A stretch of DNA of 63,335 nt, taken from NCBI GenBank assembly GCA_027623325.1, contig JAQBXY010000019.1, forward strand, positions 1-63,335, written 5' to 3'. Position 1 is the stretch's first letter; each line of letters opens with the position of its first letter. The notes under the pieces were generated by a model that was not told the origin of the DNA, did not search any database, and worked only from the letters and a program-made list of their open reading frames with translations. Positions 56,306-60,358 of this stretch are shown here, in pieces. The position numbers were made by a program, and so were the translations under genes. This DNA is from Gemmatimonadota bacterium. Lineage in GTDB: Bacteria; Gemmatimonadota; Gemmatimonadetes; Longimicrobiales; Gaopeijiaceae.

Positions 56306-57637
56306 CTACCGGCCGAAGCGCCCTCGGCCGACTCGGGTAAGAAACGGGTTCGCGGGATCGCCCATCCCCTCGCCGATCGCCCAGTCGTAGGAGAACAGCA
56401 CGACGCCGCCCGCCCCTTCCGTGCGCGCGATATCGATCATTTCCATCGTTCCATCGGCCGTGTTCATATAGGCGCCGATCCCGGCCCACACCCGCTCCGG
56501 ACGACCCGCAGCTTCGCGAGCTACGCGCACCAAGGACTCGAAGCGGGCATCGTCCGGGGTGTATGCCATCGGCACGGCCACGTCGAGGATCCCGTCGCGA
56601 AGCCAGGCACGCCAATCCTGGAATCGATCTCCGTAGGCGAGTTCGGCATCCGCAATGACCGCCGCCGATACGACCAGGCGCGGCTTACGTGCCTTTATGT
56701 CACGATAGATCCTTTCGACCGTGCGCGTGACGTGTTCGCGCCGAAACTCGGCCCAACGATCCCTCTCAGCGTCGACGAAGGCATAAAGATCACGTTCGTA
56801 GGCACCGTCGAGTTCAGCGAACCGTGCCGGAGCCAGGTGCCCTCGCACCCACATCCGGAACCGCTCGAGTGCCCCGATCGAGTAGTCGTATTCACCAGAC
56901 GGAAATCGGATGTAATCGAAGTGAATCCCGTCCAGGTCGTAGCGCTCCGCCAAGTCCATCCACACAGCGTGAACCCGATCCTGCACGTCCGGATGCGAAG
57001 GACTCGAGTAGATCCCTTCGACGGTCCTCGAATTCTCCCGAGCGTTTTGACTCAGTCGACTCACGAAACGCGGATCGAAGGGATCCACGGCGACCAGCTC
57101 CTTGCCCAACCCTCGGGGCACGGAAAGCCAGTCAGGATGTGCGTTCACGAGGTGATCGGGGCTGGTGGGCAGTCCCGCGGGACCCCACACCAGATGGGTG
57201 TTTACCCAGGCGTGTACGGCCATGCCCCGTCGGTGGGCCTCCTGGATCGTGAGTTCGAGCGGGTCGAGGCCGCCTTCCCCCCTCATGGGCTCGGCGCGCG
57301 GCTCCAGCCCGGAGCGGTAGAACGCGTCCGCCCTACCCCGGACTTGCACGATCAGGGTGTTGATGCCCGCTCGCTCGGCCCGATCGACCATGTCGCGGAC
57401 CGTCGACTCGCTCGTCATCGTGTACCGCACGACCCAAAGCGCCCGAACCTCCGCGAATTCGCGCACAGGGCGCATGGAAGCATCGGGCACGGCCACCACA
57501 GGATCTCCCACGGGACGGGGCGTGACTCTCACCTCGGGTCGTGGACGTTCCACAGGCGTCGTGACCACGGTGCAGCCCCACGATCCCGCGAGAACCACAG
57601 CCGTCACGAGGCGCGCCACCGCGAGGCGACACCTCAT
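56306..57637 (-). CDS. GHL10-type glycoside-hydrolase-like lipoprotein
   Basis: A 443-residue exported protein of the 'family 10 glycosylhydrolase-like' (GHL10/DUF187) group, TIM-barrel proteins thought to act on cell-surface glycans. Seen: lipoprotein signal with WGC near residue 22, EVRALWVVRYTM, INTLIVQVRGRADAFY, the conserved LDGIHFDYIRFP, VVSAAVIAD and VAVPMAYTPDD. ATG overlaps the tadA stop. It converges on the NhaC gene. Confidence 0.87.
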   Translation of the reverse strand: MRCRLAVARLVTAVVLAGSWGCTVVTTPVERPRPEVRVTPRPVGDPVVAVPDASMRPVREFAEVRALWVVRYTMTSESTVRDMVDRAERAGINTLIVQVRGRADAFYRSGLEPRAEPMRGEGGLDPLELTIQEAHRRGMAVHAWVNTHLVWGPAGLPTSPDHLVNAHPDWLSVPRGLGKELVAVDPFDPRFVSRLSQNARENSRTVEGIYSSPSHPDVQDRVHAVWMDLAERYDLDGIHFDYIRFPSGEYDYSIGALERFRMWVRGHLAPARFAELDGAYERDLYAFVDAERDRWAEFRREHVTRTVERIYRDIKARKPRLVVSAAVIADAELAYGDRFQDWRAWLRDGILDVAVPMAYTPDDARFESLVRVAREAAGRPERVWAGIGAYMNTADGTMEMIDIARTEGAGGVVLFSYDWAIGEGMGDPANPFLTRVGRGRFGR

Positions 57638-58131
57638 CGACGAGCCTTGAAGAAAGCCCGGAGCATGGTCGCAGACTCGTCAGCGCGAACGCCGCTGTGA
57701 ACCTCGCATCGATGATTCAAGCGCACGTCCTGTAGAAGGTTGCCGAGCGACCCCGCCATCCCGGCCTTGGGGTCAGGTGTCGCGAACACGACTCTCGGAA
57801 TGCGGGCCAGCACAATCGCGCCGGCGCACATCGCGCAGGGCTCGAGCGAGACGTACAGGGTCGATTCGGTCAGGCGCCAGTCACCGATGCGGGACGTCGC
57901 GTCACGTATGGCGACGACCTCCGCGTGGGCCGTAGGGTCACTGTCTGCGACCGTACGATTGTGCCCGGATCCCACCACGTCTCCGTGCCGAACGATGATC
58001 GCTCCAACGGGGACCTCACCGACCGCCTCGGCGCGAGTAGCCAACTCAAGGGCACGATCCATCCAGGCAAGGTCGATCGACGCGAGTTCTGGGGATGGCT
58101 GCGGAGAAGAAGTCGACGGCAACTCGGCCAT
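57634..58131 (-). CDS. tadA: tRNA-specific adenosine deaminase
   Basis: A 165-residue zinc deaminase making inosine at position 34 of tRNA-Arg(ACG). Seen: the zinc/proton-shuttle motif PTAHAEVVAIRDA, the PCAMCAGAIVLARI motif with both Cys ligands, and the C-terminal NLLQDVRLNHR region. It follows the LexA-like gene by 14 bases and overlaps the GHL10 gene by four. Confidence 0.95.
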   Translation of the reverse strand: MAELPSTSSPQPSPELASIDLAWMDRALELATRAEAVGEVPVGAIIVRHGDVVGSGHNRTVADSDPTAHAEVVAIRDATSRIGDWRLTESTLYVSLEPCAMCAGAIVLARIPRVVFATPDPKAGMAGSLGNLLQDVRLNHRCEVHSGVRADESATMLRAFFKARR

Positions 58132-58145
58132 CGGCGTCGAACCGA

Positions 58146-58841
58146 TCAGTGCTGGGTCAGGTTGACCGCTCCGACCTCGTCCATCCGTCGGTAGAAGCCC
58201 GTGACCCGTCCGATGATACGCAGCGCATTCGCGTCTTCGACGAGCGTGATGCTCCCCCCGGGTTGCAGCGCCTCGAGGTAGATACCCTTTCCGTTCCGCG
58301 TGACGCGATGGAACGCCGAGGTATCCCCGACCTCGGCCGCGATCAGCGAACCATCTTCGACATCTTCAATCGCGGCGGGAGAGACGAGAACAAAATCGCC
58401 CTCCGCCACTCCGAGCACGGCCAGGTCACCCGGCGCCGCCCGAACGATGAAGGAGTCGTTCTGGCTACCGAACCTGCGATCGATCGAAACGTGCATGTCG
58501 GCCTTGCGGCCTGCGCCGGCCTCAGGCATGTGGGAGAAGCACGGTACAGCCACCGTGTCCGCGCTCAAGTCCACCCCAAGGATCTTCACGCCGCGCGAAC
58601 GCGAAGGATCGCGCTCGAGACATCCCTTGTCGGCTAGAGCCTGCAGGTGCTCCGAAACGGTCTTGGTGCTCTTGATGCCGAAGCGCTCGCCGATCTCACG
58701 GATGGAAGGTTGGTACGTGTTCGACCGGAGATACTGGACCATGAAGTCCAGGATCTTGCGTTCGATCTCCGTGAGCGGTTCGACCTGACGACTCGTCGTC
58801 GGGACATCACGCTGTGCAATCGCGTCGGTTCTGGCCAACAA
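58146..58841 (-). CDS. LexA-like repressor without the Ser-Lys self-cleavage dyad
   Basis: A 231-residue protein laid out like LexA: an N-terminal winged helix (TEIERKILDFMVQYLRS, QPSIREIGERFGIKSTKTVS, HLQALADKGCLERDPSRSRG) and a C-terminal S24-like beta domain. The linker keeps Ala-Gly pairs (residues 108-111) where LexA is cut. The usual catalytic Ser (in GDSM or GMSM) aligns with Asp139 in RAAPGDLAVLGVAEGDF, and the catalytic Lys aligns with His178 in SAFHRVTRNG. RecA-stimulated self-cleavage is therefore not expected. TTG at 58841 is the probable start. A TTGACA promoter with a palindrome at +1 lies upstream and suggests autoregulation. First gene before tadA and the GHL10 gene. Confidence 0.85.
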   Translation of the reverse strand: MLARTDAIAQRDVPTTSRQVEPLTEIERKILDFMVQYLRSNTYQPSIREIGERFGIKSTKTVSEHLQALADKGCLERDPSRSRGVKILGVDLSADTVAVPCFSHMPEAGAGRKADMHVSIDRRFGSQNDSFIVRAAPGDLAVLGVAEGDFVLVSPAAIEDVEDGSLIAAEVGDTSAFHRVTRNGKGIYLEALQPGGSITLVEDANALRIIGRVTGFYRRMDEVGAVNLTQH

Positions 58842-58871
58842 TCAACACCTGGAGGGGGGGCCAAGTAGCAC

Positions 58872-58886
58872 CCGATTTATGATCGG
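58872..58886 (-). promoter_or_regulatory. Candidate operator, CCGAT-N5-ATCGG
   Basis: A perfect 5-base inverted repeat CCGAT-TTATG-ATCGG directly downstream of the -10 box, covering the expected transcription start of the lexA-like gene. Position suits a self-repression site; it differs from the E. coli (CTGT-N8-ACAG) and Bacillus (CGAAC-N4-GTTCG) SOS boxes. Confidence 0.45.
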
Positions 58887-58890
58887 AGCT

Positions 58891-58920
58891 ATCCTAATGT
58901 GCGCGTCGGAAAGGTGTCAA
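58891..58920 (-). promoter_or_regulatory. Promoter of the lexA-like gene
   Basis: On the minus strand a perfect TTGACA (58920-58915), 18 bases, TAGGAT (58896-58891), located 50-80 bases upstream of the TTG start and just after the gltX stop. Confidence 0.65.
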
Positions 58921-58933
58921 GAAACCCTTTTCT

Positions 58934-60358
58934 TCAGAGGGCGCGAATACGCTCGATCGCCTGAGCGATTCGCGCCGCCGTGCGATCTCGTCCGAGGAGC
59001 ACGAGAACGTCGAATATGCCGGGGCTCGCCATGTTGCCTGTGAGGGCGACGCGAAGCGGATGAATCAGCTTACCCGCGCCCGTCCCCATCGCGGCAGCCA
59101 ATTCGCGAAGCGCCGTTTCGAGTCCATCGTGGCTCCAGTCGACGACGCCGAATATGCCTGCGAGACGCTCGAGACGCTCCACCGCCAGCGCGGGTTCCTT
59201 CCCCCAGTGCTTCGCGACGGCGTCCGGGTCGTAGACCACTTCCGCGCACACGAACGGACGAGCCTGGTCGGCGAGCTCGTCCAGGGTACGGGCGCGCACG
59301 GTGACGACCTCCAGCATGTGCTGCCGCCACGCTTCGTCCCCCATTCGCTCGACAGCCTCGGGCCCCAGCCGTTCCCCGATCGCGACACAGAGGTCGCCCG
59401 GGGACATCGCAGCCAGGTGGCGCCCGTTCAACCACGAGAGTTTGTCGGCGTCGAACACCGAGCTCTTCTTGAGAATCCTGGAGGGATCGAAGGCTTCGAT
59501 CAGTTCTGCGCGGGTCATGAACTCCCTGTCGTCGCCAGGACTCCATCCCAATAGAGAAAGGAAATTGACCATGGCGTCGGGGAGGACACCTTCGGAGGCG
59601 TAATCGCCGACTGCTGTCGCGCCGTGTCGTTTGGAGAGCCGCTTACCGTCGGTCCCGAGAATCAGGGGGACGTGCGCGAAGACCGGCTCGGGGAAGCCCA
59701 GCGCGCGATAGAGCAAGACCTGCTTGGGTGTATTGGAGAGGTGGTCATCCCCACGGATCACGTGGGTAATGCGCATGTCGGCGTCATCCGACACCACGGC
59801 GAGGTTGTAGACGGGCGTCCCGTCGCTTCGCAGAATGATCAGGTCGTCGACATCGTCGTTCCCGAATCGCATCTCACCGTGGACCATATCGGTGAAACGG
59901 GTTTCGCCGTCGGGCACACGGAAGCGGACGGCAAACATCTCGCCTGCGGTCGCCCGCCGCTCTGACTCCGGAGCGCCCAGCGCTTCCGCTTGCTCACGAG
60001 CCACCCGGCTCGGATGCATCCCGCGCTCCTGGGCTTCGGCGCGCACCTGATCCGGATCGGAGAAGTCGCGATAGGCCTTCCCCTCATCGAGAAGACGGAG
60101 CGCATCGCGCTTGTGACGCTCGATGCCTTCACTTTGAAAAATCGGCCCCTCGTCCCAGTCCAACCCCAGCCACGACATGCCGTCGAGGATGGCGCGAGTG
60201 TGTTCGTCGCTCGAACGCTCACGGTCCGTGTCCTCGATTCGGAGCACGAAGACCGCTCCCTCCTTTTTCGCCAGAAGCCAGTTGAAGATCGCCGTGCGGG
60301 CACCGCCTACGTGGAGATAGCCGGTCGGCGAGGGGGCGAAGCGCAAACGCATCGTCAC
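58934..60358 (-). CDS. gltX: Glutamate--tRNA ligase
   Basis: A 474-residue class I synthetase. Seen: HIGH-type motif FAPSPTGYLHVGGARTAIFN, VLRIEDTDRERS, LGTDGKRLSKRHGAT (KMSKS motif KRLSKR), LSLLGWSPGDD and the anticodon-binding helical end. GTG start overlaps the glnS stop as GTGA. With glnS next to it, direct glutaminylation of tRNA-Gln is available, so GltX may be discriminating. Confidence 0.96.
   Translation of the reverse strand: MTMRLRFAPSPTGYLHVGGARTAIFNWLLAKKEGAVFVLRIEDTDRERSSDEHTRAILDGMSWLGLDWDEGPIFQSEGIERHKRDALRLLDEGKAYRDFSDPDQVRAEAQERGMHPSRVAREQAEALGAPESERRATAGEMFAVRFRVPDGETRFTDMVHGEMRFGNDDVDDLIILRSDGTPVYNLAVVSDDADMRITHVIRGDDHLSNTPKQVLLYRALGFPEPVFAHVPLILGTDGKRLSKRHGATAVGDYASEGVLPDAMVNFLSLLGWSPGDDREFMTRAELIEAFDPSRILKKSSVFDADKLSWLNGRHLAAMSPGDLCVAIGERLGPEAVERMGDEAWRQHMLEVVTVRARTLDELADQARPFVCAEVVYDPDAVAKHWGKEPALAVERLERLAGIFGVVDWSHDGLETALRELAAAMGTGAGKLIHPLRVALTGNMASPGIFDVLVLLGRDRTAARIAQAIERIRAL

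Follow-up and report, generated by a model that had tools for sequence, protein, structure and literature searches.

The window, a 63,335-nucleotide stretch of DNA from a Gemmatimonadota bacterium, contains a gene for a protein that resembles the SOS repressor LexA but appears to carry Asp and His in place of the catalytic Ser and Lys, which raises the question of whether such a protein can still respond to DNA damage and, if not, what kind of regulator it may be. The open reading frame lies at 58146–58841 on the reverse strand and encodes 231 aa, comprising a winged-helix DNA-binding domain (wHTH, residues 21–90) followed by an S24/LexA fold (residues 96–220). Its start codon is a TTG, at 58841 or more likely 58838: the gene opens with TTG TTG (window 58838–58841), and since several sister species have a single TTG at the same spot, the second is probably the true start. 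A TTG start is common to most of the genus and to near genera.

The LexA domain order proposed in the first-pass annotation is borne out by profile matches to PF01726 (LexA_DNA_bind; residues 21–84, 6.3e-21, 74.4 bits) and PF00717 (Peptidase_S24; residues 116–213, 5.3e-8, 33–34.6 bits against a cutoff of 23.3), and by a marginal pass of the lexA equivalog TIGR00498 (115.9 bits against a cutoff of 110.95). LexA also ranks first in a profile search of PDB sequences, and LexA structures are the best VIA/Foldseek matches of an AlphaFold model based on a 44-sequence alignment (pLDDT 81), in which the C-terminal domain adopts the LexA/S24 fold (Z 13.0 and 2.9 Å against 8b0v; Z 12–13 against LexA C-terminal domains) and the DNA-binding domain matches 1lea with a Z of 10.3. 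By both domains and by its TIGR00498 score the protein is a member of the LexA family. Nor is its active site the product of a local frameshift or of pseudogene formation, because the gene is colinear with those of sister species, at 70–77% identity.

Aligned with E. coli LexA and more than 100 relatives, the protein has Asp139 at the position of Ser119 and His178 at that of Lys156, ungapped between conserved anchors; no alternative Ser or Lys occupies the aligned active-site positions. The placement originally made by eye is therefore the one given by a gap-free alignment, and the same Asp/His pair occurs in 23 distinct orthologous proteins; the Ser-Lys dyad of self-cleaving LexA is accordingly absent. 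The status of the Ala-Gly that had been pointed out in the linker is less clear: an AG is indeed present and may match A84-G85 of LexA, although the alignment is ambiguous here, and it is not a conserved site, since sister species carry EG, SG, QG, NG or DG in its place.

The same genome encodes a second LexA, a possibility that the first-pass annotation had raised. This protein, LexA1 (C60:84214–84837), has the Ala-Gly, Ser and Lys intact and scores 118.7 bits with Peptidase_S24 and 218.4 bits with TIGR00498. Its promoter carries two direct-repeat boxes of the form TTCGG-N6-TTCGG (G000 C60:84842–84882), a pattern with 17 matches in the genome compared to 4 for a reversed-pattern control. Two tandem boxes precede a gene with an IMS domain (ImuB-like) and one precedes a dnaE2-like gene (loci L168 and L169). 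RecA is present in the genome, and a box with one mismatch (TTCGCTTTATCTTCGG) is readable before recA (L221). A pattern search found no exact box on the window contig, and the interval between the window gene and the upstream gltX contains none even when two mismatches are allowed; the gene's own promoter thus lacks the SOS box of its genome. Because the boxes belong to the intact LexA1 and none lies at the window gene, LexA1 is very likely, on sequence grounds, the SOS repressor of this genome; given a normal LexA with SOS boxes of its own, we interpret the window protein as a second, ancient LexA paralogue, which we name LexA2.

Most genomes of the order Longimicrobiales, which comprises soil and marine bacteria, have an orthologue of LexA2; the named records among them are Gemmatimonadota, several labelled Longimicrobiales. 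The gene is absent from a few well-assembled relatives (G020, G026 and G029), in which it seems dispensable, as only LexA1 was found there. The Ser-Lys dyad is retained by 12 of the 107 distinct LexA2 proteins and missing from the other 95. The commonest replacement pairs are DH (23 proteins), DY (11), EY (10), EF (7), RF (6) and RY (5), with VF also represented; more than half of the dyad-less proteins have Asp or Glu at the Ser position, and in most of them the Lys is replaced by His, Tyr or Phe. Because relatives show so many other pairs, Asp139/His178 is to be taken as the state of one clade, not as a functional exchange or a new catalytic pair. An acidic residue at the Ser position might nonetheless be functional rather than fully random. 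The cleavage site follows the dyad: LexA1 has both the Ala-Gly and Ser-Lys in 20 of 20 proteins, and the aligned Ala-Gly is kept in all 12 LexA2 proteins of the order with an intact dyad and gone from nearly all others, an AG somewhere in the linker being found in 20 of the 95 dyad-less proteins, including that of the window.

Within the order the dyad is intact in the LexA2 of basal relatives, and its loss maps to a single change on the tree, compared to 46 changes for the exact residue pair; once the dyad was gone, the residues at both positions drifted. In the sister family f5 of the class, where LexA2 likewise adjoins gltX, 14 of 16 proteins keep Ser-Lys and the remaining two (T/R and A/R) represent independent losses, giving three changes of dyad state across the order and f5 together. 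The f5 and LexA1 groups have 100% bootstrap support; that for the dyad-less clade of the order is weaker (89/77).

These observations lend good support to the earlier proposal that RecA would not induce LexA2 to cleave itself: the protein has neither catalytic residue, 95 orthologues lack an intact dyad, the Ala-Gly is unconserved and a canonical LexA very likely handles SOS. Very probably, the usual signal of DNA damage is unable to switch LexA2 off.

The two domains of LexA2 have diverged to very different extents. Among dyad-less proteins the mean pairwise identity is 0.80 in the DNA-binding domain and 0.38 in the C-terminal domain, compared to 87% and 63% in LexA2 proteins with Ser-Lys and 0.79 and 0.74 in LexA1; as more genera are sampled among the dyad-less proteins than in the other groups, the safer comparison is between the two domains within one group. 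For close pairs dN/dS is far below 1 in both domains, reaching 0.05–0.33 in the C-terminal domain of dyad-less proteins. Taken together, the identities of 80% and 38% and the low dN/dS indicate that DNA recognition has been held constant and that the C-terminal half is relaxed yet under purifying selection. This pattern is consistent with a working DNA-binding protein that has no further need of its protease.

The neighbourhood of lexA2 is also conserved. As proposed at the outset, it is followed on the same strand by tadA (tRNA adenosine(34) deaminase; 57634–58131, reverse strand; NF008113, 5.5e-52) after a gap of 14 nt, and then by a gene for a GHL10 glycosyl-hydrolase-like lipoprotein (56306–57637, reverse strand; PF02638, 9.6e-36) that overlaps the stop of tadA by 4 nt. 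Upstream lies gltX (glutamyl-tRNA synthetase; 58934–60358, reverse strand), named by sequence similarity and translation. Across the order tadA follows lexA2 on the same strand at 125 of 126 loci, some of which come from a single genome listed under two handles, the sole exception being truncated at a contig end. gltX is the upstream neighbour at most loci, as in f5, and GHL10 is present at the locus in only part of the order. In family f2 an apparent tRNA-Gln gene, recognised by eye, lies between gltX and lexA2 (L044, L047 and L048).

The reading that we favour, and consider probable from these comparisons, is that LexA2 is a non-cleavable regulator of the LexA type, which has lost its ancestral self-cleavage and become uncoupled from RecA. 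The ancestral LexA2 of the class would have possessed the full machinery (Ala-Gly, Ser and Lys) downstream of gltX, and the dyad was then lost once on the branch to this genome. By homology, LexA2 would persist as a dimeric winged-helix DNA-binding regulator on the LexA/S24 scaffold, its C-terminal half serving only dimerisation and/or another input, with SOS control left to the intact LexA1. It would remain uncleaved upon DNA damage and would repress, or otherwise set the level of, a small set of targets, acting as a constitutive or level-controlled regulator and not as a proteolytic switch.

Several other explanations must be weighed against this. That LexA2 still cleaves itself, through Asp139/His178 or another Ser/Lys pair, draws on the kept fold and nothing more; as relatives replace Asp/His with EF, DY, EY, RF, VF and others, and the scissile Ala-Gly is unconserved in sister species, we find this scarcely credible. 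A decaying, non-functional relic would account for the mere 38% identity of the C-terminal domain among dyad-less proteins and for the absence of LexA2 from a few relatives, but is largely refuted by conservation, namely the 80% identity of the DNA-binding domain across many genera, the low dN/dS of both domains and an open frame and strong promoter kept across genera; we regard it as very improbable. It is also improbable, though less so, that a separate protease cleaves or degrades LexA2, as IrrE does DdrO. The logic is known from Deinococcus (PMC8072749), but the conserved neighbourhood of lexA2 (gltX, tadA and GHL10) includes no protease gene, and the linker varies in both length and sequence.

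The main rival is that LexA2 responds to a signal, either because the emptied cleft now acts as a pocket for sensing a ligand or redox state, or through control by modification. The C-terminal domain has stayed under purifying selection after loss of the dyad, the prevalence of Asp/Glu and of His/Tyr/Phe at the two vacated positions is compatible with such a pocket, and the proposed control of Synechocystis LexA by phosphorylation of Ser173 offers a precedent (PMC7567884). Against this, the residue pair is unconserved beyond one clade, as its 46 state changes indicate, and we found neither a ligand-binding motif nor a partner gene for LexA2; we consider a signal-responsive LexA2 possible, at perhaps a third of the weight of the favoured reading. 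A more specific proposal is that throughout the order LexA2 was once a repressor that destroyed itself when triggered by RecA and has since become a regulator, constitutive or controlled by a ligand, that is coupled to the translation genes gltX and tadA, its dead site reused as a sensing pocket; this we hold to be doubtful.

The first-pass annotation had also proposed an operator for lexA2. The promoter next to it is real and deeply conserved across genera: it is a sigma-70-type promoter with a TTGACA element, CTTTCTTGACAC-N13-CGCACATTAGGATAG (first bases TTTC here; 58889–58925, reverse strand), unique in the genome. Among 26 orthologous promoters, each from a different genome, the block has 17 invariant columns and a mean of 1.52 bits per column compared to 0.39–0.52 in the flanks, part of the invariance at the -10 end arising by construction because the promoters were chosen by their TTAG-AT-G core. 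The proposed operator itself, the palindrome CCGATTTATGATCGG (CCGAT-N5-ATCGG; 58872–58886, no strand assigned) just downstream of the -10 box, is not supported. It is absent or imperfect in orthologues, the stretch that holds it has a background information content of 0.39 bits per column, and shuffling the region gives a stem of this length about 8% of the time. Its 7 copies in the 3.35 Mb genome are close to the chance number (about 4 by a rough base-composition estimate; 1 for the reversed-pattern control).

The conserved promoter block fared no better as a shared operator: over the full pattern no other genomic site matches with up to three mismatches, and with GCACATTAGGATAG there are otherwise only two-mismatch matches, no more than in the control. 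The block has no strong dyad symmetry; an autoregulatory site may nevertheless overlap the lexA2 promoter. A hairpin in the 5' leader was also considered and rejected, the stems of orthologues being mostly no better than those of shuffled sequences. In one sister-family genus the spacer of the lexA2 promoter contains a perfect inverted repeat, GTACG-N4-CGTAC (L182, L183 and L188), which is possibly the operator of the Ser-Lys form; the case is unconvincing, as the repeat is no more frequent than its control and the second of the shared sites falls within a gene that looks, from its translation, like thymidine kinase. The palindrome, promoter-block and GTACG-N4-CGTAC searches thus yielded no LexA2 operator or target gene.

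A literature search, in which most subscription journals lay outside coverage, returned nothing relevant on LexA in Gemmatimonadota or on this LexA2, and comparison must be with better known systems. With LexA of the E. coli type (TIGR00498; PDB 1jhf, 3jso and 8trg) LexA2 shares the domain order, the wHTH and the S24/LexA C-terminal fold, but differs in its Asp/His for Ser/Lys, its unconserved cleavage site and a promoter of its own without a recognisable LexA1-type box. The closest precedent is LexA of Synechocystis sp. PCC 6803, a protein with neither the Ala-Gly site nor the dyad Ser, which regulates non-SOS genes and for which tuning by phosphorylation has been proposed (PMC7567884). LexA2 similarly lacks the dyad Ser (Asp139), although its linker does contain an AG, unconserved among sister species; unlike the Synechocystis protein, it is one of two paralogues, the other being an intact SOS LexA, belongs to a different phylum and has drifted at both sites since the loss. 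DdrO, cleaved by the separate protease IrrE and not by itself (PMC8072749), is a conceptual analogue. Like LexA2 it is a repressor type without self-cleavage, but no IrrE-like protease adjoins lexA2. DdrO is not known to belong to the LexA homologues that carry an S24 domain.

The class thus offers a natural series, of LexA with and then without its self-cleavage machinery while a paralogue retains the SOS role, that makes the function of the LexA C-terminal domain after loss of proteolysis testable. It also calls for caution in annotation: LexA2 still passes TIGR00498 and would therefore be annotated as a SOS repressor. Two LexA paralogues per genome, as here, are also found in Leptospira interrogans (LexA1 and LexA2) and Deinococcus radiodurans (LexA2). 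The Leptospira LexA2 keeps Ser130 and Lys166 and is apparently cleaved, to judge by a fragment seen upon UV irradiation (PMC3789691), unlike the LexA2 described here, which has lost the dyad and whose gene lies between gltX and tadA. Some f3 genomes have, in addition, a third short open reading frame (154–226 aa; L049, L050 and L051) that matches the LexA DNA-binding domain only.
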